This document shows, piece after piece, positions 1-20,908 of a DNA stretch of 22,644 bases. The position numbers and the translations under genes were made by a program. Position 1 is the first letter of the stretch; the number at the start of each line of letters is the position of its first letter. Under the pieces are notes generated by a model that was not told where the DNA came from, did no database searches, and saw only the letters and a list, made by a program, of their open reading frames with translations. This DNA comes from a virus. The stretch covers positions 1 to 22,644 of IMG/VR virus record IMGVR_UViG_3300009158_000217; one strand, 5' to 3'.

Positions 1-799
1 AATAGATTGCGGCACTGGCAGGCACTGGGATACCGACCTGAACATATGCGTAGATGACACTAAGGCGGCACTAGTCTGTCCTGCCGGTGAGCATGAAGAA
101 GCCGGTATATGCGTAAAAGACACTGTTACCCCTCCGGTATGCGCTGAAGGGTTTGAGCTAAATGACGCCAAAGATGCTTGTATTCCTGTGGTTACGGTTG
201 TAGATAAAAAGTGTAATGCTGGATTTGTCTTTGACGAAGCTGAACAGAAATGCGTACCGATAGATTGCGGCACCGGCTATCACTGGGATCCTGAGCTTAA
301 TCAATGCATGGAAGATACAGTTACGTGCGGCGCTGGTTATCATTGGGATTCAGAACTAAATCAGTGCATGGAGGATACGGTTCAATGTAGCGCTGGCTAT
401 CACTGGGATCCCGAACTAAAGCAGTGCATGCAAGATACGCCTGCTGCATGCCCAACGGGGTATACCCGTAACTCAGAGGGTGTCTGCGTTCTAAATACGC
501 CTACCACCTGCCCAACTGGGTTCCACAAAGATAGCACGGGGAATTGTGTAGCGAATACCAAGACGGGGACAACCACCACGCTTCCGACAATTACTGGCGG
601 CACTACCACCACTACAGAGACTCCGTTTTACGCCGGAGCTATGGACGAGTTTGATTTATTTGCCACGATGGATGAGTTGTTGCATCCAAAAGCTCAGCAA
701 AATCCGCAAGAGGATACTAAAATGGCTGATGGCGGGTATTTAGATCACATGCTGGCGGAGCCAATGTCGGTGGACGATCTGCTAAAACTCTTACGCTAA
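1..799 (+). CDS. Cysteine-rich tandem-repeat protein (5' partial), putative virion-associated
   Basis: The reading frame is open from base 2 of the window, so the true start lies upstream; the first ATG inside the window (188) falls in the middle of the repeats and is not the start. At least nine repeats of about 20 residues follow the pattern C-x2-G-[YFH]-x8/9-C-[VM]-x-[DN]-T, each with two cysteines (first Cys codons at 8, 77, 140, 212, 266, 326, 386, 449, 509). They are followed by a Thr-rich linker and an acidic/Leu-rich tail that contains MADGGYLDHM. Three consecutive repeats are nearly identical (GYHWD...LxQCM.DT). Two Cys per unit would suit small disulphide-bonded modules, although a cytoplasmic phage protein would have to form them late or bind metal instead. 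I do not recognise the family. The gene lies 10 bases before the next gene and is probably in the same late operon. A virion role is inferred from position and from the shared Gly-Gly motif. Confidence 0.75.
   Translation, partial: IDCGTGRHWDTDLNICVDDTKAALVCPAGEHEEAGICVKDTVTPPVCAEGFELNDAKDACIPVVTVVDKKCNAGFVFDEAEQKCVPIDCGTGYHWDPELNQCMEDTVTCGAGYHWDSELNQCMEDTVQCSAGYHWDPELKQCMQDTPAACPTGYTRNSEGVCVLNTPTTCPTGFHKDSTGNCVANTKTGTTTTLPTITGGTTTTTETPFYAGAMDEFDLFATMDELLHPKAQQNPQEDTKMADGGYLDHMLAEPMSVDDLLKLLR
8..568 (+). repeat. In-frame tandem repeats, mostly 60-bp period, encoding Cys-rich modules
   Basis: Nine units are spaced 69, 63, 72, 54, 60, 60, 63 and 60 bases apart, all multiples of three. The units at 266, 326 and 386 are nearly identical at DNA level, and the unit at the window start resembles them too. 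The similarity is in-frame and continuous, without spacers, so this is coding repeat expansion, not a CRISPR array. Recent duplication of the central units is the simplest explanation for their near identity. Confidence 0.85.
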
Positions 800-809
800 A
801 GGAATTGAT

Positions 810-3041
810 ATGGTCATGGTTTGCACACAGGTAGATACAGGCACTACTGACAAGTACGGAGATCCGGTCTACGAAACCCAATGCTCTGATGATGGGACTG
901 AAAACCCAGATACCACCACGCAAGACCCCAATGAGAACTTTATTCCTTCGTGGGAGAACAGAACAGTAGCAGATACACCGTTTGACTACAACGAATTTAT
1001 CAGAACCCATCCTGATTTTGCGGACGGGATCGCTAGTTCTGGTTTAACTGATGCGGAAAAAGCCACCATAGCCGAGCTTAAGAAAGACCCAAGCGTCTTT
1101 GACAAAATTTTAAAGCAGGGTAAAGCGGTTTTTGTTAATTCAGATGGTACGTTAAATTGGGCGGCATTGGCAACCACCGGACTGGCGGTCAAGAACATGA
1201 TAAGTGGTCAAGGGTCGTCCGCTGGCTACAATAAAGCGGTTCCAGTAGTAGATGCCACACGCGCTCAACTGCAATATGATGATCCAAATCGCGCTCCCGG
1301 ATCTGGTGGTCGGCAGTACCTTACCGATACACAGTATTCTAAAACTGGTGATCCAGTAGCTTCAGCAGCAGCAAAAACTGCCACTGAAGGGCAGGCAGCA
1401 GGCATACTAGGCGCATACAGGCCGGTGGCTGCTCCCGCAGTAAACCCGTGGGCGGGAAAAATGAAAACTAGCTGGAATTCAGCGCCTGTTGCGGCTAAAA
1501 CCAATGCTGCCAATACTACGGCGGCGAGTGAAAACCAGACTGATTACGATAAAACGTTTGAGGGTATTCAGCAACTGCTTGGCAGAACAGGCTCACAAGG
1601 GATCCCAGACGAGTATAAGAAATATGTCAATGTTGATGACACTGGGGTGGCGGCTCCCGGTACGTCTATTGGTGATTTTTCCGGTACAACAGACAAGAGA
1701 CAAAGACAAGGCCCGGGAAGTATTGTAGATGAGGGTTTTAGTAGGGGCTATAACCCACAAACACCAGAAGAAATAGCGGCTGGGCGACGAGACTTGGATG
1801 AAAAAATTGCAGCTAATTCACAAACTGCCCAGTCTCAGGCTGGGGATATGCAAAAAATGGCCGATTCTATGCAAAGACAATATGCTCAAGGTGGCTTAAT
1901 GGCTGCACATGGACGATATCTACAAGGCGGTACAGACGGGATGGCGGACAAGATTCCAAGCAGTATTGATGGCGACCAGCCTGCTGCCTTGAGTCATGGT
2001 GAGTTTGTTATTCCTGCTGATGTGGTTTCACATTTAGGCAACGGCAACTCAGACGCTGGTGCAGAAAAACTGTACGAAATGATGGCCCGTATTCGCAAGG
2101 CCCGCACTGGGAACTCGGATCAGGGTAAGAAAATCAACCCAGACAAGTTCATGCCCGGTGGTTTGGCTAACTCCAGCTACGCTACTGGCGGTAATGTCCA
2201 GCATTTTGATACCGGCGGCATCCCCTTAGATGTATCCACATCTAAAGGTCTAGCTCCTTGGGCTGGCGATTATGTGACTAATATGCTGGGAGAGGGCGCT
2301 GCTTTGGCTAAAGCCCCGATGCAAGTTTATGGTGGGCCACTTACGGCAGGTGCATCTAACCTACAGCAGCAAGGGTTTGCGGGAATTAGCGATGTAGCAC
2401 AGGCTGGGTACGATCCCGCTAAATTTACTTCTGGTACGTTTGACACTACTGCTGCGAATAAGTACATGAACCCGTACTTGCAAGCATCGCTCAACCCACA
2501 GTTAGCAGAAGCTCGTCGTCAGTCTGAGATCACGCAACTGGGTAATGCTGGTAGAGCTACGCAAGCCGGTGCGTTTGGTGGTGGTCGCCAAGCTATTATG
2601 GACGCAGAATCGCAGCGTTCACTGGGCGCAAACCTTGCCAACATCACTGGTACGGGCTACAACACGGCTTATGATAAAGCCCAGCAACAGTTCAATACTG
2701 AGCAGGGTCGCAGTATGGACGTTCAAAATGCTGAAGAAGCTTCTCGCAAATACAGCGCAGACTACGGGCTTAAATCTTTGAGTGATTTGATGGCTGCTGG
2801 TGCAACAGAGCGCGGGATTGCTGCAGAAGGCATTGCTGCAGACAAGAAACAGTTTGAAGAGCAAGCTCAGCATCCGTTCAATATGGTGGAGTTCCAACGC
2901 AAGTTGGTTGAAGGACTTCCGATTGGGTCGTCAACAGTCAGTACTAATCCAGATGACATCTCCAAAATTAAATCAGACATAGCTGGATTGGCAGCTATGT
3001 ATCAAACTTTGTCTAATCTTGGCATTAAACCTGCGAACTGA
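810..3041 (+). CDS. Putative virion structural/ejected protein with GG-motif domain
   Basis: This is a 743-aa protein. The ATG at 810 follows AAAGGA, which overlaps the stop of the preceding gene, with a 6-base spacer. The N-terminal half is Ala/Gly/Asp/Gln-rich. Residues about 358-434 form a recognisable module found in aquatic phage virion proteins: YAQGGLMAAHG, then GGTDGMADKIP, SHGEFVIPADVVSHLG and an Arg/Lys-rich helix. More Gly-Gly motifs follow (MPGGL, YATGG, DTGGI). The C-terminal third contains YMNPYLQ (about 552) and GAFGGGRQA (about 587) within helical sequence rich in Gln and Ala. That pattern occurs in phage internal or ejected proteins and tail-associated proteins. There is no signal peptide. 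The function is inferred from context (between two other putative virion genes) and from those motifs; I cannot say whether it is an internal core or a tail component. Confidence 0.75.
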   Translation: MVMVCTQVDTGTTDKYGDPVYETQCSDDGTENPDTTTQDPNENFIPSWENRTVADTPFDYNEFIRTHPDFADGIASSGLTDAEKATIAELKKDPSVFDKILKQGKAVFVNSDGTLNWAALATTGLAVKNMISGQGSSAGYNKAVPVVDATRAQLQYDDPNRAPGSGGRQYLTDTQYSKTGDPVASAAAKTATEGQAAGILGAYRPVAAPAVNPWAGKMKTSWNSAPVAAKTNAANTTAASENQTDYDKTFEGIQQLLGRTGSQGIPDEYKKYVNVDDTGVAAPGTSIGDFSGTTDKRQRQGPGSIVDEGFSRGYNPQTPEEIAAGRRDLDEKIAANSQTAQSQAGDMQKMADSMQRQYAQGGLMAAHGRYLQGGTDGMADKIPSSIDGDQPAALSHGEFVIPADVVSHLGNGNSDAGAEKLYEMMARIRKARTGNSDQGKKINPDKFMPGGLANSSYATGGNVQHFDTGGIPLDVSTSKGLAPWAGDYVTNMLGEGAALAKAPMQVYGGPLTAGASNLQQQGFAGISDVAQAGYDPAKFTSGTFDTTAANKYMNPYLQASLNPQLAEARRQSEITQLGNAGRATQAGAFGGGRQAIMDAESQRSLGANLANITGTGYNTAYDKAQQQFNTEQGRSMDVQNAEEASRKYSADYGLKSLSDLMAAGATERGIAAEGIAADKKQFEEQAQHPFNMVEFQRKLVEGLPIGSSTVSTNPDDISKIKSDIAGLAAMYQTLSNLGIKPAN

Positions 3042-4801: not shown

Positions 4802-7800
4802 ATGGCATTTGACGTCAACGCCGCACGAAAAGCCGGGTACTCAGACCAAGATATTGCAGAGTACTTAGGGCAACAAAAGAAATTCGATGCGGCGGGGGCG
4901 ATCAGTGCTGGTTATGCCCCATCTGAGCTTATCAACTACCTAAACCCAAAAGAATCCACGATCGGCAGTGAGCTGGTCCGTGGCGGCAAGCAAGTTTTAT
5001 CCTCTGCCCGTACTGGTTTAGAGAGCTTGTTTGACAAAAACAAAGCAGCTACCGAAGGTGTTGCCCGTAGCGAAGCCATTGGACAAGAAGCCGGTATCGG
5101 CCCATCGCTAGACGCCGTACAAAAAGCATATCAAGACAAAGGCGTACTGTCTGCCGCAGGTGAAGCCGTATCTCAAATCCCTCGTGCGTTGGCTGGGCAG
5201 GGCGCAAACCTTGCCACCATGTATGCCGGAAGTAAAGCAGGTGCCGCTGCTGGTGCCCCGTTTGGTGTACGAGGCCGCATCGTTGGTGGTGCAGCGGGTG
5301 CAGCGGGTGCATTGCTTCCTCAGTTTATGGGGCAGACTGTTGAGACCCAAGCCGGTGAGCAGATGGAGCGTGGCGAAGCCGTAGATATCGACCGTACTAA
5401 AGCATACACAGCCGCCGCTGGTATGGCAGCGCTAGAAGGTGCAGGTACTGCATTTACCTTAGGTAAACGAGTTGTCAAAGGTATTCTTGGCATTGCTGAT
5501 GATGCCGCCCTCGTTACAGCCAAATCACAAGCCGAGTTAGTCAAAGCCGCCGAGCGTTCGCTGGCTGCATCTGTAGGGCGTGGTGTTACCCGTGGTACTG
5601 CTGAGATACCCGTAGAAGTTGGGCAAGAGATTATTGATCGCTACCAGTCGGGTCAAGACCTGACCTCCCCCGAAGCTATCAAGGCGTATGGCGAAGCCGC
5701 ATACATGGCGACTTTAGTGGGCGGCACTGTTGGTGGTGTATCTGGTCCGTTAGAGCGCAGTCAAGCCCGTGGTCAAGTCGAACAACAGAAACGTGAAGCT
5801 CAACAGACCGCCGCAAGAACTGAACAGGAACGTATTGCGGGGCAGGGTGCCCAGTTACCGCCCGAAGCGCCCGTAGGTACACAAGGTACGTTGTTTACCA
5901 AAGAAGATTTAGCGGGGGTAGACAAACGGAAAGGGGCTACGATTGAGCCTACGCCTGTGCCACCACAGACACCGCGTCCCCCTACACCTCCCGCAGCACA
6001 GGGCGAACAACTCGGCCTAGGTTTAGACTTTGAGCGTGACTATGCTGACCTCGTGAAAGAGCGTGAGCGTCTTAAGCAGGCTCCACAGACCCCCGAAGTT
6101 AAGGCGCGTATAGCCGAACTGACAGACCAAGTAGAGTCCTTGCATGAGATGGAGATTGGCAAGATTCGCGCAGAGAAAACGCTTGATACGGAGGCCAAAG
6201 ATAGGTTTCCCGGACTTACCGCAGAACCTACGCAGGCTGGGTTGTTTCCTGAGATTGACGTTGTTCGGCCTACGCCCGAAGCGCCCCCTGCACCACGAAC
6301 CGCTGCAACCGCTAATGACGCGCAGGCTATACAACGCGCCCAAGACCAGCAAGCGCAAGAGGCTGCAGACGCCGCGCAAAAAGAACAAGAGCGCAAGGGC
6401 GGTCAGTATCGGCTGCCATTGCGTACGGTGCCCGAAAGTAGGGACGTAGGACGGGGCTTAACTATCCCAGCACGCCCCGATGAACTCACCATGCAGGACT
6501 TAGAAGACATCGGATTTCCAATGCGTTCTGCCAAAACATGGTTGGAACAAAACGTTGTTGGTAAGACACCGGCTGAGATTCAAGTACTTGTAGCTAACAA
6601 TCCTGACCTATTATTAGAAAAGGGTACTCGCGCTCAGATATTAAAATACCTGACTGCGCCCGTACCTGAAGGATATAAGGAGGCACCCCGTGTCACGCCC
6701 ATTACCCCGCCGAATAAGCCTCAGCAACAACCTCAGCCCAGAGGAGGTAAGCCAAGCGTGGGAGTACCTAGTCAGCCTGCCGGAGTACAGCCCGTTCAAC
6801 CCGGAGCCGGAGTTTCCCCCGCCGCCAGAGCACCTACAGCACCTGTCGGACTCGGACTGGCACCTGCTGGACAACCTGCTGGCACGGGAGTTGTCCCTAA
6901 AAGCGCACCTGCCCCTACACTAAAATCAAATGCACCTGAAACACCAACGGTGGCTGCTAAACCGGCTCCTGCGCCTACCCCTGCCAAAGTCGTGGAAACA
7001 CCGGCTGCTCCTAAAGCTGCTGAAACTGTAAAGAGCCGATACGAACGACTGCTAGATGTTTCTAATAACGAGTCCATACCCGTTGCAACGCGCAAGCAAG
7101 CCGAAAAACAAATGGACTTGTTGGATGACCCAACAATGAACAGGGGCAAGGCAGACCGCAAAGCTAACGAAGACTACGCCGATAGATTCTTAACTCGTGT
7201 AGAAGGGCTTAAGTCAGTCGCCATTGCCGAAGGTCAATCGTTAGACAACCTAAAAGATGAAGTTAAAAACGCCAAGGGTGTTCTAGGTACTGCCCTGCGT
7301 CGCATGGTTGAGTCCGGCAAGGTTGTGTTGGAAGATGCGCACCCATCCGGCAAAAAAATTGGCGGTGTATACGACGGCGAGAAAGTTACGCTGTATGCAA
7401 ACGGAATCCCTTCCGGTCAATCCATAGCGGTTGCCTTGCATGAAGTCGGTGCTCACCTTGGCATGCAGAGATTGTTAGGTAAGAAGCAATACAACGCCGT
7501 GATTGATCGCATCTTGGATATGGTTGCCAAGGCGGATGGGTCTATCGAGGCTGATATAGCGCAGCGTGCGTACAAACGCATTCCTGTGTCTGACTTTAAG
7601 CGCGGTGTAGGGCGTGACGAGATGGTTGCCTACTTTGTTGAGGAGATGGCAAAAGCCGAAGTCGACGGTACCTTACCAAAAATTGGCCCCATGCGTGTCC
7701 TGTGGAACCAGATTAGGACTGCAATCGTTACATCAATCAACAAAGCATTAGGTACTAATTTTGGGGTAAAAGACTTCTCTGCCCAAGACATATTTGATAT

Positions 7801-10507
7801 CGCCAAGTCGTCGTTTGTTGCTGAATCCAAGACGGAAGTAACTAAAGGCGAGGTTAAACAGATGTTCTCCGTGTCTGCGTCTACCGAGTCTTTGGTAAAT
7901 TCATTAGGTGCTCTGGATGCTCAGGAAAAATCTTGGCTGGGTAAGGCTATTGACGGGTTTAAATCTAACCCCGATATTGACTACGTTACTAAGTTCCGCA
8001 CACAGACTGCCGACATCGCAGCCACTATTGAGCAAAGACTTCGCACTAAGTTTGATGGCGCTGTGCGGGACTCACTAGGTAAGCTCAACCCCATGGGCTT
8101 GTATCGTCAGGCGCAAGACTACGCCAAGATGCTGCTGGAGTATTACCAAACCGGCACGCTGTATAAAGACCCAACGACTGGGCTATGGATGTCTGGAGTT
8201 GGTAAGGGCGTGCGGCCTCCAGCCGAGGTCTATGCGTTGATTGACAAGTACGCAGCAAAGAACGGGTACAGCCGTGACCGCGCAACGCAGATTGCCAGCC
8301 GTGTGCTGGAAGGTGTCCGTTTAGATGCTATGCGCACCTCTAACCGGGTAGACGGTACAACCTTTACTCTGCATCTTAAAGACGCCGAGATTAACCAACT
8401 GCTTGCTGAGTACAACGCTGACCCTGATTTGAGGGCTATGAGCAAGCTCATGGATGAAGCCCGTATTGCTATGGTCGATAACATGGTAAAGGTCGGGCGG
8501 TTAACAAAAGAAATGGGCGATGATTGGAAGAAGGTTGTTGGCTATGTGCCGTTTGACCGCATCGAAGACTTCTCAAATAACTTCCACAAAGTTAAGAAGA
8601 TAAGCGGCAAGGGCTTAGCTCAAGTCGGCAAACTGCCAGAGTTGGTTGGCTCGTTGAATCGTCCGGTGGGCAATGTGTTTGATAACTACATCAACACGCT
8701 TGGTTGGATGGTCGGACAGACTCTGAAGACAGATGCCACTGTAACTACACTTCGAGCATTGGAAGACGTTGGGTTTGCTAAGTTCTTAGGGCGAAGCACG
8801 CAACAAAAAGACAATACGGTAGGCGCATACGTTGACGGTGAAATGCAATACTGGGAATTGCCAAGTAAGTACGACGTCATGGCGTTCAAAGATTTGAATG
8901 CGCCAAAACCCGGATGGCTGCGCAACATGGGCGCATTCTCCAACGTGCTGCGTAAGGCTGTAACTGTTTTGCCGCCGTTTGCGTTGAAGCAGGTAACGGA
9001 CGACGTGCAACGAGCCATCTTAACGTCTGGTGTGAAGAACCCCGGCGCTTTGATCTGGATGTCTTTGACTAACTTCCCTAAGTTGGCACTTGCCGAGCTA
9101 CGCGGTATCCAGCATCCGATGGTTAAAGATTTTGGGGTGATGGGCTTAACGGGTGAGTATGATTTTCAAGAAGGCAAACCCGCTATCTCATTGCTTAAAG
9201 ACTTGGGATATAAAAAACGCGGTAGGTTTGAAACTATTCTGCATCGTTTAGATGGCATTACCCGTGCGTCTGATTTAGCAGTTCGTAAGGCTATCTACGA
9301 CCAAACACTTAAAGAAGGTGGCGATCAACTGTTGGCACAGACCCGCGCTCGTGAGTTCATCAACTTCCGCCGCCGTGGAGCCAATGAGTTTGTAGGGGTC
9401 ATGGTCACGACTATTCCATTCTTTAACGCCTATGTACAAGGTATGGATGTGCTGTACCGTGCGGCGTCGGGCAAGGACTCTAGTTCGTCCGTTGACCGCG
9501 CTCAAGCGCGTCGTTTGTTCTGGAGCCGAGCCGCCATTACGTTTATGCTTAGTTCCCTGTATGCGTTGGGTAAAGACGACGAGGATAAAGATTACCAAGA
9601 CATGGACTTGCTTACTCGTGATAACAACTGGGTGTTCCCCGGCGGGTATAAGTTGTCCGTGCCGGGCGAGTTGGGTGCAATATTTAAAGTTATCCCCGAA
9701 CGCATCGTAGAGTACATGCGCCGCCAAGGTACACCGGAAGAACAAGAAGCGTTTGAAGCGGTGCGTACTACATTAAGTTACATGTACCAGCAGTACATAG
9801 GGCGCGTAACTCCAATCCCACAGGCCATCAAACCTGTGATAGAAGCATGGGCAAACAAATCGTTCTTGACTGGGCGTGCCTTGGAAGGTTTCCACCATAA
9901 AGCAATGGACCCAACCGAGCGCGTAACTGAACAGACGTCTGAGATAGCCAAACTTGCGGCGGTATCGGACCTTGGCAAAGCCATATCTGAGTTTAGCAAG
10001 GCCACGATTGGTGTGGAAGTCTCTCCTATCATGGTTGACAACGCGTTGCGCGGGTACTTCGGGTCATCTGCCGCAATGCTCACAATGGTGACAGACAGCC
10101 TGCTAAACCCAACGCGAGTGGATCGCCCACTGCACAAGTATGCATTGCTTAGCAACTACCTGTACGACTCCGTTGGCACGCGCCGCATGACTGAGTTTTA
10201 CGACGAACGCGAGAAAGTTGGCAAAGCCAACAACACTTTGCGTGAGTTAATGAAAACCGACTTAGACCGTGCTGAAAAATATGTGGAGTCCCATTCCGAC
10301 GAACTGCAGCTTGAGAGTGCGGTTAACTCAACGCTTGAGCACCTGCAACGCACCCGTGCATACCGTAAGTTCCTCAATAGTGTTGAGGGGGCCAAGGACA
10401 TGAGCAAAGAAGACCGCGAAGCCGAGCTTAAAGAAGTCAAACAGATGGAAGTTGAGTACGTTCAGTGGGTTCGTGAAGCTAAGGCTGAGTTGCGCAAAGT
10501 TCAGTAG
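4802..10507 (+). CDS. Giant polyvalent ejected protein (metallopeptidase-like HExxxH, LPD38-like C-terminus)
   Basis: This is a 1901-aa protein; the ATG follows AGGT with a 6-base spacer. The N-terminus begins with two short similar helical repeats (AGYSDQDIAEYL; AGYAPSELINYL). Ala/Gly segments with glycine-zipper character lie at about 140-180 and 300-312. A charged Gln/Glu region precedes a long Pro/Ala/Gln linker (about 620-745). A HExxxH site (H880, E881, H885, in ALHEVGAHLGM) with a downstream DEMVAYFVEEMA matches the metallopeptidase-like domain described in phage polyvalent proteins. The region about 1660-1770 (SFLTGRALEGF, then GYFGSSAAML) resembles large-polyvalent-protein domain LPD38. 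Such proteins are packed in the capsid and enter the host with the DNA, where they may act as enzymes or help form the DNA passage. The peptidase substrate is unknown. The linker DNA carries another ORF in the +1 frame. This is the last + strand gene of the window; its stop overlaps the convergent gene's end. Confidence 0.85.
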   Translation: MAFDVNAARKAGYSDQDIAEYLGQQKKFDAAGAISAGYAPSELINYLNPKESTIGSELVRGGKQVLSSARTGLESLFDKNKAATEGVARSEAIGQEAGIGPSLDAVQKAYQDKGVLSAAGEAVSQIPRALAGQGANLATMYAGSKAGAAAGAPFGVRGRIVGGAAGAAGALLPQFMGQTVETQAGEQMERGEAVDIDRTKAYTAAAGMAALEGAGTAFTLGKRVVKGILGIADDAALVTAKSQAELVKAAERSLAASVGRGVTRGTAEIPVEVGQEIIDRYQSGQDLTSPEAIKAYGEAAYMATLVGGTVGGVSGPLERSQARGQVEQQKREAQQTAARTEQERIAGQGAQLPPEAPVGTQGTLFTKEDLAGVDKRKGATIEPTPVPPQTPRPPTPPAAQGEQLGLGLDFERDYADLVKERERLKQAPQTPEVKARIAELTDQVESLHEMEIGKIRAEKTLDTEAKDRFPGLTAEPTQAGLFPEIDVVRPTPEAPPAPRTAATANDAQAIQRAQDQQAQEAADAAQKEQERKGGQYRLPLRTVPESRDVGRGLTIPARPDELTMQDLEDIGFPMRSAKTWLEQNVVGKTPAEIQVLVANNPDLLLEKGTRAQILKYLTAPVPEGYKEAPRVTPITPPNKPQQQPQPRGGKPSVGVPSQPAGVQPVQPGAGVSPAARAPTAPVGLGLAPAGQPAGTGVVPKSAPAPTLKSNAPETPTVAAKPAPAPTPAKVVETPAAPKAAETVKSRYERLLDVSNNESIPVATRKQAEKQMDLLDDPTMNRGKADRKANEDYADRFLTRVEGLKSVAIAEGQSLDNLKDEVKNAKGVLGTALRRMVESGKVVLEDAHPSGKKIGGVYDGEKVTLYANGIPSGQSIAVALHEVGAHLGMQRLLGKKQYNAVIDRILDMVAKADGSIEADIAQRAYKRIPVSDFKRGVGRDEMVAYFVEEMAKAEVDGTLPKIGPMRVLWNQIRTAIVTSINKALGTNFGVKDFSAQDIFDIAKSSFVAESKTEVTKGEVKQMFSVSASTESLVNSLGALDAQEKSWLGKAIDGFKSNPDIDYVTKFRTQTADIAATIEQRLRTKFDGAVRDSLGKLNPMGLYRQAQDYAKMLLEYYQTGTLYKDPTTGLWMSGVGKGVRPPAEVYALIDKYAAKNGYSRDRATQIASRVLEGVRLDAMRTSNRVDGTTFTLHLKDAEINQLLAEYNADPDLRAMSKLMDEARIAMVDNMVKVGRLTKEMGDDWKKVVGYVPFDRIEDFSNNFHKVKKISGKGLAQVGKLPELVGSLNRPVGNVFDNYINTLGWMVGQTLKTDATVTTLRALEDVGFAKFLGRSTQQKDNTVGAYVDGEMQYWELPSKYDVMAFKDLNAPKPGWLRNMGAFSNVLRKAVTVLPPFALKQVTDDVQRAILTSGVKNPGALIWMSLTNFPKLALAELRGIQHPMVKDFGVMGLTGEYDFQEGKPAISLLKDLGYKKRGRFETILHRLDGITRASDLAVRKAIYDQTLKEGGDQLLAQTRAREFINFRRRGANEFVGVMVTTIPFFNAYVQGMDVLYRAASGKDSSSSVDRAQARRLFWSRAAITFMLSSLYALGKDDEDKDYQDMDLLTRDNNWVFPGGYKLSVPGELGAIFKVIPERIVEYMRRQGTPEEQEAFEAVRTTLSYMYQQYIGRVTPIPQAIKPVIEAWANKSFLTGRALEGFHHKAMDPTERVTEQTSEIAKLAAVSDLGKAISEFSKATIGVEVSPIMVDNALRGYFGSSAAMLTMVTDSLLNPTRVDRPLHKYALLSNYLYDSVGTRRMTEFYDEREKVGKANNTLRELMKTDLDRAEKYVESHSDELQLESAVNSTLEHLQRTRAYRKFLNSVEGAKDMSKEDREAELKEVKQMEVEYVQWVREAKAELRKVQ
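6676..6683 (+). promoter_or_regulatory. Perfect Shine-Dalgarno inside the polyvalent gene
   Basis: TAAGGAGG is fully complementary to the usual 16S rRNA tail. It sits 6 bases before an out-of-frame GTG at 6690 and has no role for the 1901-aa frame it interrupts. It is the strongest ribosome binding site I saw in the window and is the main reason for calling the nested ORF. Confidence 0.8.
6690..6923 (+). CDS. Nested out-of-frame small protein (77 aa) inside the polyvalent gene
   Basis: This ORF runs in the +1 frame of the 1901-aa gene, from GTG 6690 with TAAGGAGG 6 bases upstream, to TAA at 6923. The product is not a typical shadow. It is acidic and Leu/Glu/Trp-containing, with a helical start (LSPEEVSQAWEYLVSLPEY), a Pro hinge (FPPPPEHL) and a helical end (LSDSDWHLLDNLL) finishing in PLH. 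The overlapping 1901-aa frame encodes only a low-complexity Pro/Gln/Ala/Gly linker there, which suggests that the nested frame carries the selected sequence. Codons in this frame end mostly in G or C (agc, gag, ctg, cac), unlike surrounding genes. No signal peptide, lipobox or membrane segment is visible, so it is not an obvious spanin. I do not know its function. Expression together with late virion genes is implied. Confidence 0.65.
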   Translation: MSRPLPRRISLSNNLSPEEVSQAWEYLVSLPEYSPFNPEPEFPPPPEHLQHLSDSDWHLLDNLLARELSLKAHLPLH

Positions 10508-17873: not shown

Positions 17874-20618
17874 TCAACAGTCCCCATAGGAAGCCCCTAC
17901 GCCCGATTCGCAAGCCAACGGTAGTGTTTGTGCCCATTTTGGTCGCCATGACATGCACTCCTCAACGTATTTTTGTGCTTCATCTTTTTCCTCAATCGGT
18001 GCAATACATGCCACGCTATCATGGACTGTCAACACCACTTTGTACTTCTTGCCGATTTTTAGCATCTGCTCCGCTACGACCTGCCTTGCTACGGCTTGAC
18101 AGATGTTCTCCACGCAGTTGTGAACTACAAAGGGTTCCGAATGACCTCGGACCATGAAGCGCGATCGGGGTCCGGCGTTGAGGATGTCATAGACAGCCTC
18201 CGGTGCCACCGAAACGCGAGCGTCGATCTCGAAATACCCGTTACCGCATGTGCTTTCCCCAAGTCCACCGGCAGTGCCCCCCTGCGGTTGGCTGCTTGTA
18301 CCGCCATCGACACCCATCGGCAGTTCTCTGGGGTATACGAACCGTTGTTGTCCCGTCGATCCAGCGTCAACCCCGGAGCGTAAGTTGGCCCCATGTCGGC
18401 CCAGAACGCCTCGAAAGACTGTTGCCACGCCGCGCATACAGTAACCCCACGCGCCCCGTAGTTGCGCCATGCCTGATGTGATGACAGTCGGCACCGATCG
18501 CGCATCGACCTCCACACCCAATACGCGGGGTGCTTGGACATTGCATGCGTCTGGTTCTTTGTGCCCACCTTGCACCCGCATGAGGGGTGCCCCCCACGCT
18601 TTGCGTACTTCTCCGTGTCGCCGACCGTCCGAACCACACTGGCCCCGCACTGACACTGGAACCCCCACAGCGCCCGACGCCCGTTCGATCCCACATACTG
18701 AGTCGCCGTCAGGTAACCGAACTTTTGCCCTGCGTAGTCCTTCGCACGATGATGCACTTTGCCACTCCTTTTCGGTTAGAACCTGATGCTCTGGGGTCAT
18801 TCGGACCCCATCAACTACGATGGTATGCTTTTCACCTTGGTATGTCAACCCGCCATGTTGCACCCATTCAACACCGTCCCAGACTCGGTCCTCCAACTGC
18901 ACAGAGGCAATGGTAATCCAGCCTCGGGGGGTAAGGACTTGCGTGTCAGCAGCCAAACACTTCCCGCCGTAGATATATACGGGCAAACCCTTAGAGAAGT
19001 ATCGCCATTGGTCTTTGCCAGTTTTTTCATCCGCTACTTTGGCTAAGCCGGGGTACTGGATAAACAACCCACTAGGCAGAGTCAACCCCTCGCCCGGAAC
19101 AGCGTGTATAAGCCCCTGCTCGTCCACCTGAAACCCGTTGCCTGTACGCAACGCAATCAACGCTTCATCGGCTTTGCGCCACAGTTCTGGAATCTTGTAG
19201 TACGTGTTCCGGTACGTATCAATGATGCGTCTTGCCTCAACCTCCGTAACATCTACCCCAGCCTGCATTTTTAGGAATAGCTGAAGCTTCTTATGACCGA
19301 CGCCGTAGCCTGCGCCCAAGACCACGGTTTTTCCTACCTGACGCTGGCTTGCATTGCCTGTTGTAACCGCCTCTGGCGGTATCTGATAAATCTGACTAGC
19401 CATCAGGCGGTACACATCCTTCTTATCTGCGAACGCTTGTATCAAGTCTTGTTGTCCCGCAAGCCACGCTAAAACCCGAGCTTCAATTTGTGAGGAGTCG
19501 CAGTCAATCACAACGTAACCCTCGGGGGCTTTGATGGCATTCTTGATCTTGCCTGCGTTATCACCGCGTGACGGCAAGTTCTGCAGGTTTACAGAGTCTT
19601 GACCAGACCAACGACCAGAGTGTGCCCCGTAGTAACGCAGAGGTACAGGAAACTTGCCTCGAGTAGACATACCAATAAAGCGCTCAGTGCGAGTTTCCTC
19701 AATTGTCGTCTTGTTTCCAAGGCGTGCGGCAACAAGCATTTGGACTCGTTCATCAGGGTGCTCCTCTAGGGCTTTAAATTCTTCGTCGGTTTTGGCAAAT
19801 GCGTATGCCTGCTTACCAGTGCGGGCACTGATTTTAAGTGGCGGCACTACATCGTAGTGCTCCAGCACGATGGCAAACTTCTCATTAGACATCAGCAATT
19901 TCTTAATGCCGCCCATGCCCTCACTAAAGATTGTGTGCACGTACTCGGGCTCGGCATCTGCCAGCATCATGTCCCGCACCGATTCAAGCAGCGACTCCTT
20001 GCGGTCTTTCACATCCTCTAGGTGGTCGATCAGTAGCTTCCTGTCTAGCTCTAGCACCGGCTCAATGAACATGCGCAAAGTCATGTCAATCAGTTTCAGT
20101 TCTTGTTTTGGGAAACCCATCGCCGTGTACATGTTGAACAGCTTGTACGTTAACTCTGTGTCGTTGATGCAGTACTCAGCGTAGCGTGCCAACTCCTCGG
20201 CAGAGAAGTCAGCGTAGTGCTTGCCCTTCGCATTCAATACCGCGTCACCCTTGACACCGACCCCCATGCGTTCAGCTTGTTTGGCAAGGCCGTGCCCCTT
20301 CTCATGCGGAAACAAAGCGCGGGACATACCGAGTGTGTCAAACCAAGCCATAGGGTTCACGCCATACAGCCAGTTGAGAACAGCACCATCGAACGCAGTG
20401 TTCTGTGCAACCACCATCGCATCAGACCAGTCGAACTCTTTCAGTATCCGTTCCACTTGCGGTTTGGGATACCAAACAGTTTCACCATCGTCCACCTTGA
20501 TTGCAATGCCAATCATCTCAAACTGAGGCGACCGCACATACTCCTCGGTAGGAATCTTGGTCAGGGAATACTCAGTTGAGTAGAAGCACTCTAAATCTAA
20601 AACCACTAACTTTGGCAC
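17874..20618 (-). CDS. Family A DNA polymerase with 3'-5' exonuclease, interrupted by an intein
   Basis: The precursor is 914 aa. I chose the GTG at 20618: AAAGGAG ends 5 bases upstream, whereas the GTG at 20624 overlaps that site. Exonuclease motifs: D8/E10 (VLDLEC), AQNTAFDG (D77), YCINDTEL (D153). Polymerase motifs: A, IDCDSSQIEAR (D374); B, RQVGKTVVLGAGYG (K430); C, TVHDSVACI (H866, D867, with Ser in place of the usual Glu). Residues 554-834 are an intein inserted after YGGK in the conserved segment before motif C. Splicing would give YGGKCVENICQAVAR and a 633-aa polymerase, close to phage enzymes with exonuclease but no 5' nuclease domain. The gene replicates phage DNA with the primase-helicase and SSB of the same operon. 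Its start overlaps the VRR-NUC gene by 13 bases. Unspliced precursor should be inactive, because the intein splits the fingers/palm region. Confidence 0.93.
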   Translation of the reverse strand: MPKLVVLDLECFYSTEYSLTKIPTEEYVRSPQFEMIGIAIKVDDGETVWYPKPQVERILKEFDWSDAMVVAQNTAFDGAVLNWLYGVNPMAWFDTLGMSRALFPHEKGHGLAKQAERMGVGVKGDAVLNAKGKHYADFSAEELARYAEYCINDTELTYKLFNMYTAMGFPKQELKLIDMTLRMFIEPVLELDRKLLIDHLEDVKDRKESLLESVRDMMLADAEPEYVHTIFSEGMGGIKKLLMSNEKFAIVLEHYDVVPPLKISARTGKQAYAFAKTDEEFKALEEHPDERVQMLVAARLGNKTTIEETRTERFIGMSTRGKFPVPLRYYGAHSGRWSGQDSVNLQNLPSRGDNAGKIKNAIKAPEGYVVIDCDSSQIEARVLAWLAGQQDLIQAFADKKDVYRLMASQIYQIPPEAVTTGNASQRQVGKTVVLGAGYGVGHKKLQLFLKMQAGVDVTEVEARRIIDTYRNTYYKIPELWRKADEALIALRTGNGFQVDEQGLIHAVPGEGLTLPSGLFIQYPGLAKVADEKTGKDQWRYFSKGLPVYIYGGKCLAADTQVLTPRGWITIASVQLEDRVWDGVEWVQHGGLTYQGEKHTIVVDGVRMTPEHQVLTEKEWQSASSCEGLRRAKVRLPDGDSVCGIERASGAVGVPVSVRGQCGSDGRRHGEVRKAWGAPLMRVQGGHKEPDACNVQAPRVLGVEVDARSVPTVITSGMAQLRGAWGYCMRGVATVFRGVLGRHGANLRSGVDAGSTGQQRFVYPRELPMGVDGGTSSQPQGGTAGGLGESTCGNGYFEIDARVSVAPEAVYDILNAGPRSRFMVRGHSEPFVVHNCVENICQAVARQVVAEQMLKIGKKYKVVLTVHDSVACIAPIEEKDEAQKYVEECMSWRPKWAQTLPLACESGVGASYGDC
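18125..18757 (-). CDS. HNH homing endonuclease encoded out of frame within the intein
   Basis: This 210-aa protein lies in the +1 frame relative to the polymerase-intein frame. The GTG at 18757 has AAAAGGAG 7 bases upstream. Residues 8-62 form an N-terminal zinc-binding-like module (GQKFGYLTA, then CQC at 35-37 and CGC at 60-62). Residues 76-160 are the phage HNH/AP2-linked core: AYWVWRSMRDRC, NYGARGVTVC (99-108), LDRRDNNGSYTPENCRW (132-148) and AANRR. Residues 167-189 (GKAHAVTGISRSTLAFRW...) look like a C-terminal helix-turn-helix DNA-recognition element. Length and order match complete free-standing HNH homing enzymes. The gene starts just after intein block B and ends 8 bases before the intein's last codon, so the splicing domain's C-terminal part and the endonuclease tail share DNA. 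The expected function is to cut intein-free polymerase alleles and spread the element. Confidence 0.88.
   Translation of the reverse strand: MHHRAKDYAGQKFGYLTATQYVGSNGRRALWGFQCQCGASVVRTVGDTEKYAKRGGHPSCGCKVGTKNQTHAMSKHPAYWVWRSMRDRCRLSSHQAWRNYGARGVTVCAAWQQSFEAFWADMGPTYAPGLTLDRRDNNGSYTPENCRWVSMAVQAANRRGALPVDLGKAHAVTGISRSTLAFRWHRRLSMTSSTPDPDRASWSEVIRNPL
18765..18772 (-). promoter_or_regulatory. Shine-Dalgarno for the nested HNH gene
   Basis: On the - strand AAAAGGAG is followed by a 7-base spacer and the GTG of the HNH gene. In the polymerase-intein frame the same bases encode the T-E-K-E-W segment directly after intein block B. A strong, correctly spaced site inside another coding frame argues for independent translation of the endonuclease from the polymerase mRNA. 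Confidence 0.8.
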
Positions 20619-20908
20619 AGGCACTCCTTTATTACGTTTTCTAAATGGTCGTAGTTTGTTTCGTTAACAATGAGGGTATACCCACCACAAGCGTTAATCA
20701 TCTGCAAATTCTTGAGTTGCAAAGCAGTTGCCTGCCCCTTGCCTGCCTTGGCTTCGATAGCCACGAAGTGTCCGTTGACACAGCACAAGAAGTCAGGGAC
20801 TCCACTGTTGCCAAAACCAGTACCAATAGGCATGGCGTAGTAAATGCCGTGGGCTTTCAAGATCGCTTTGATCTTGGCTTTAACTTTTGCTTCAGGTGTT
20901 GCTGCCAT
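20606..20908 (-). CDS. VRR-NUC domain nuclease
   Basis: This is a 100-aa single-domain protein of the VRR-NUC (PD-(D/E)XK) family. Visible motifs are GTGFGNSGVPDFLCC (active-site D39), FVAIEAKAGKGQAT (E52, K54, Q59) and a following Gln (Q64). GGAGGAG lies 9 bases before the ATG. Stand-alone VRR-NUC proteins of phages are structure-specific nucleases able to act on branched DNA, and often accompany an SNF2 helicase, as here. The gene overlaps its upstream neighbour by 17 bases and the polymerase start by about 13 bases, so coupled translation with the polymerase is likely. Confidence 0.92.
   Translation of the reverse strand: MAATPEAKVKAKIKAILKAHGIYYAMPIGTGFGNSGVPDFLCCVNGHFVAIEAKAGKGQATALQLKNLQMINACGGYTLIVNETNYDHLENVIKECLCQS

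Follow-up and report, generated by a model that had tools for sequence, protein, structure and literature searches.

The window analysed here is the 22,644-base virus record IMGVR_UViG_3300009158_000217, in which the structural module on the + strand ends with a 1901-aa open reading frame (ORF; 4802–10507, + strand), with the replication genes lying on the opposite strand. Wholly inside this host ORF, in its +1 frame, lies a second, putative gene of 77 codons (6690–6923, + strand). The host protein is a large polyvalent protein with an LPD38 domain at residues 1595–1772 (9584–10117, + strand), matching Pfam PF18857 (E 1.1e-24; 87.9 bits against a cut-off of 27) and PHROG 18222 and 9854; it has the make-up of the LPD38 polyvalent proteins, namely this domain within a very long multidomain phage protein. 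Its family, together with its position as the last gene of the structural module, suggests that it is an ejected virion protein, delivered into the cell. In a near-complete 63 kb relative, the ends of which are circularly permuted, the virion and tail-fibre genes precede the polyvalent-protein gene. The host segment that immediately precedes the nested gene (6497–6680, + strand) was present in almost all relatives in the host-gene alignment (occupancy 0.95–0.96), and the regions before 6497 were variable.

Several other features of this phage lineage were observed. Its genomes are of about 63–68 kb (records G001–G006), and only metagenomic contigs were found. At residues of about 900–930 (window about 7500–7590), the polyvalent protein has the sequence HEVGAHLG, and in its distant relatives a comparable place is occupied by HELVHVA, HELIHAA or HELVHAQ, which suggests a zincin-type metallopeptidase domain; this region gave no Pfam match. 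Upstream in the + strand module, the ORF at 2–799 (+ strand) contains cysteine-rich tandem repeats, C-xx-GYHWDxELNQCMEDT, that match eukaryotic CBM_14-type cysteine repeats, and the protein encoded at 810–3041 has matches in cyanobacterial phages only. The 916-aa family-A DNA polymerase (17874–20624, − strand) is closest to those of KPP25-like and Rhizobium phages, with 33–34% identity, and carries an in-frame, intein-like insert at residues of about 556–838, which starts with CLAADTQVLTPRGW, includes TPEHQVLT and ends with FVVHN-C. No intein match to the insert was found in Pfam or NCBIfam, and the insert is missing from the 635-aa polymerase of a relative (G002; L209:6868-8775).

The nested ORF is preceded by a Shine-Dalgarno sequence, TAAGGAGG (6676–6683, + strand), at which the host frame reads ..YKEA. 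After a 6-nt spacer, CACCCC, a GTG codon at 6690 opens the 77 codons, which include those for the peptide ISLSNNLSPEEVSQAWEYLVSLPEYSPF and are followed by TAA at 6921–6923. The host frame encodes a Pro/Gln/Ala/Gly linker here, RVTPITPPNKPQQQPQPRGGKPSVGVPSQPAGVQPVQPGAGVSPAARAPTAPVGLGLAPAGQPAGTGVVPKSAPAPTLK, and AAGGAGG occurs a single time in the whole window, both strands counted. This arrangement bears out a preliminary description of the DNA, which had reported at 6676–6923 a perfect Shine-Dalgarno sequence, six bases, GTG and a 77-codon +1 ORF opposite Pro/Gln/Ala filler in the host frame. When the host codons were shuffled synonymously, the nested frame stayed open in 7% of the shuffles for the window and in a median of 17% of trials for 64 distinct relatives, so that an open frame in one genome is only mildly surprising. 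On these figures a single genome proves little against the view that the ORF is a chance product of a Pro/Ala/Gln/Gly linker poor in +1 stops, its Shine-Dalgarno sequence being a coincidence of the EGYKEA codons; chance was dismissed on the comparison with relatives.

The nested peptide served as a first query for relatives among viral contigs; since such a search could be biased, an independent one used the C-terminal host stretch 9002–10504, which holds the LPD38 domain and lies 2 kb downstream of the nested gene. The nested peptide found 49 loci and a profile search found further ones, and the two approaches converged on one set of loci, all from metagenomic viral contigs. We obtained 74 distinct copies of the nested gene, every one of them (74/74) lying in a host frame that runs for at least 500 codons without a stop, and none of them duplicated. 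Free-standing homologues, for which the preliminary description had proposed a search, were not found among these copies. It had also regarded relatives with a conserved host protein but with stops in the +1 frame or no Shine-Dalgarno sequence as evidence against a gene; among the distinct loci from the host C-terminus search that reach the region, the ORF was present in 54 and absent in two. One of the two (L148) begins just downstream, and in the other (L138) the host identity is only 26%. All distinct relatives reaching the region with a host identity of at least 49% contained the ORF, the most distant complete carrier (L208) being at 49%, and a contig with 31% host identity (L087) appeared to hold the last 31 residues at its edge, ending SPLH, with a weak profile match (E 0.08–0.095). 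Extra searches with the host parts of L087 and L077 added few relatives, and those with divergent nested members as queries returned nested copies only. Divergent members, L077 (33% identical), L208, L187 and L194, kept the core of the product despite the low-complexity host frame. Among GenBank phages encoding a distant LPD38 protein (23–28% identity), those checked lacked the nested gene; together with its absence from L138, this suggests that it is restricted to a lineage.

Comparison of the two frames showed that selection for coding acts on the nested one. The nested ORF was open at the homologous place in 57 of 58 relatives, as compared with 0–26 of 58 (at most 45%) for the 19 other alternative-frame ORFs of the host gene. 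Among 41 distinct sequences, mean identity was 64% for the nested protein and 43% for the overlapped host peptide, and differences at nested codon positions 1, 2 and 3 were 0.30, 0.24 and 0.45, respectively. The most conserved position in the overlap, nested position 2, is the host wobble position, which should vary most if only the host frame mattered; the codon-position comparison proposed in the preliminary description thus came out in favor of the nested frame. In 59 aligned host genes, differences at fourfold-degenerate sites of the host frame were about 0.6–0.7 (~0.65) along most of the gene, dropped to 0.18 and 0.11 across 6731–6886 and recovered to 0.54–0.66 past 6965. No second comparable dip was seen in the 5.7-kb host gene, suggesting that it contains one nested gene and not several. 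When changes were classed by their effect on both frames, the nested dN/dS in the overlap was, for the closer pairs, 0.16 (pairs <10% divergence) and 0.24; the corresponding host-frame values were 0.58 and 0.90, becoming near neutral farther out (range 0.58–1.1), and control values for the +1 frame along the host gene were 0.68–1.06. These values fit the earlier suggestion that the small gene either overprinted the linker or is the reason why it stays open. The conserved host third positions, the single sharp fall at fourfold sites, the low nested dN/dS and the openness in relatives refute the chance reading, the probability of which we consider negligible. Conservation beyond the needs of the host protein could also come from a DNA or RNA element, such as a packaging site, an RNA structure or a regulatory site, but this is extremely improbable, as the variation tracks the nested codons (third position 0.45 vs. 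second position 0.24), nested-synonymous changes are frequent (NS rate 0.15–0.55 vs. NN rate 0.02–0.33) and the stop codon holds its position but varies among TAA, TGA and TAG.

The predicted product of the window copy is a protein of 8.9 kDa with a calculated pI of 5.1 and a GRAVY of −0.6, and the family has the consensus core LSPEEVSQAWEYLxSLP...PPxxLxxLSDxDWxLLxNLLARELxLK..SxLH. AlphaFold2, run with 31 sequences and no template (pLDDT 83.4; pTM 0.64), predicted helices at residues 17–29 and 54–73 with a Pro-rich loop between them, suggesting a soluble acidic two-helix protein, in line with the acidic, helical, structured-looking product anticipated earlier. A Pfam and PHROG scan of 38 members gave no consistent family (best PHROG E 0.063; best Pfam E 0.046), PDB sequences gave nothing credible (best E 0.17), and a fold search against BFVD and PDB gave weak matches (E at least 2.1). 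Neither the window protein nor the family consensus nor the divergent form from L077 gave a tblastn match in GenBank phages, even at E 10, although this search may have lost sensitivity through masking of the Pro-rich loop as low-complexity sequence. A search of genome contigs with profile A1 found no relative, and whole-record profile scans found none in Pag-Yong1, two Vibrio phages, Pondi, Palmer, phiARM81mr, KPP25, a Rhizobium phage or a Caulobacter phage. Nested phage genes most often serve in lysis, as do phiX174 E and lambda Rz1, and the latter is brought to mind here by the +1 nesting and the Pro-rich middle. Inspection of the sequence revealed no transmembrane or other hydrophobic segment, signal peptide or lipobox cysteine, the window copy having no cysteine at all; together with the GRAVY and the calculated pI, this argues against a typical nested lysis gene, and we consider a lysis or spanin protein, including an Rz1-like one, highly unlikely.

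We then consider how the product may be translated. In 63 distinct relatives, the AGGAG at −12 to −8 was 86–100% conserved, including the host third positions −11 and −8, whereas the other host third positions upstream of the nested start were near random. The T and G of the start codon were 100% conserved, the T being a host third position, and the distance from AGGAG to the start was fixed at 7 nt in 63/63. The start codon was GTG at 67, ATG at 40 and TTG at none of 107 loci with an assigned start (GTG 38 and ATG 25 among the 63 distinct sequences). Judged from sequence, the nested gene has its own translation start, with a conserved Shine-Dalgarno sequence and with GTG or ATG in 63/63. The products were of 73–87 aa, mostly 77 (about 73–79), and the first ~10 residues were variable; in the three with a longer N-terminus (L034–L036; 84–87 aa), the Shine-Dalgarno sequence and start were both shifted upstream together. 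In prfB and dnaX, frameshifting is promoted by Shine-Dalgarno sequences within the gene, and the frame relation here is +1, as it would be if the site drove a programmed slippage yielding a truncated polyvalent protein with the nested C-terminus. We consider this very unlikely, as the fixed spacing, the joint shift and the variation of the first residues, in the manner of an N-terminus, favor internal initiation over a frameshift product. No sigma-70-like promoter was found by an internal promoter scan at 6300–7000, so that the nested gene is probably read from the host-gene transcript.

Taken together, these data make it very probable that 6690–6923 is a real overprinted protein-coding gene, whole in the host +1 frame and translated by internal initiation, and we regard it as almost certainly genuine and overlooked. 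Ribosomes would bind the Shine-Dalgarno sequence at 6676–6683 on the mRNA shared with the host ORF, initiate at GTG 6690 and terminate at 6923, so that the small protein would be made alongside the polyvalent protein. Its expression would be late, since the host gene closes the structural module. The gene most likely arose by overprinting of a low-complexity linker, which may now be maintained mainly by the small gene.

As to function, the product may act on the bacterium, in host takeover, counter-defence or superinfection control. In favor of this, small acidic orphan phage proteins often bind host factors. Polyvalent proteins are, moreover, conflict-related (PMC5512222). Against it, takeover genes usually move about, whereas none of the 74 distinct copies lies away from the host gene, and the product matches no defence or inhibitor family in Pfam or PHROGs. 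We consider such a role quite possible, though short of probable, and about as likely as our leading guess, which comes from location. This tentative guess is that the product works with the polyvalent protein as a small partner, in the role of an assembly or ejection chaperone or of a keeper of its enzymatic domains, because the nested gene never left the host gene in any copy and the adjoining segment 6497–6680 is kept. More speculatively still, it may be devoted to the one polyvalent protein whose gene encloses its own, as a chaperone, inhibitor or keeper. If so, a virion-delivered multidomain effector and its controller would be encoded by the same nucleotides and would be inseparable by recombination.

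Complete overprinted phage genes are a known kind. Lambda Rz1 is nested in Rz in the +1 frame and phiX174 E in D, each with its own ribosome-binding site, and the gene described here resembles them in being a complete small alternative-frame gene with such a site inside a longer phage gene. It differs in sitting in a giant polyvalent-protein gene, and its predicted soluble, acidic, two-helical product bears no resemblance to these membrane or lipoprotein lysis proteins. Overprinting has been reviewed (PMC8227390). As in LPD38-type large polyvalent proteins (PMC5512222; PF18857), the host gene has LPD38 and ends the structural module, and it is unlike those of the checked GenBank phages in holding a nested gene. 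Literature searches found no description of the gene, and a text search of the paper that founded the LPD families (PMC5512222) found overlapping or small genes unmentioned and "reading frame" once in passing. Small-protein catalogues (such as GMSC, PMC11364881) gather unannotated small ORFs; this family matches no PHROG or Pfam family and had no counterpart in the libraries and phage records that were searched. Pfam, PHROGs and the searched GenBank-phage collection all lack this deeply conserved family, probably as a result of gene callers discouraging full overlaps. Among tailed phages, the locus is one of the clearer examples, on comparative grounds, of complete overprinting, the old frame being near-neutral filler and the new frame carrying the selection, and it allows an exact, host-synonymous mutation test. 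It further suggests that the Pro/Ala-rich linkers of giant virion proteins are worth a systematic search for hidden genes.
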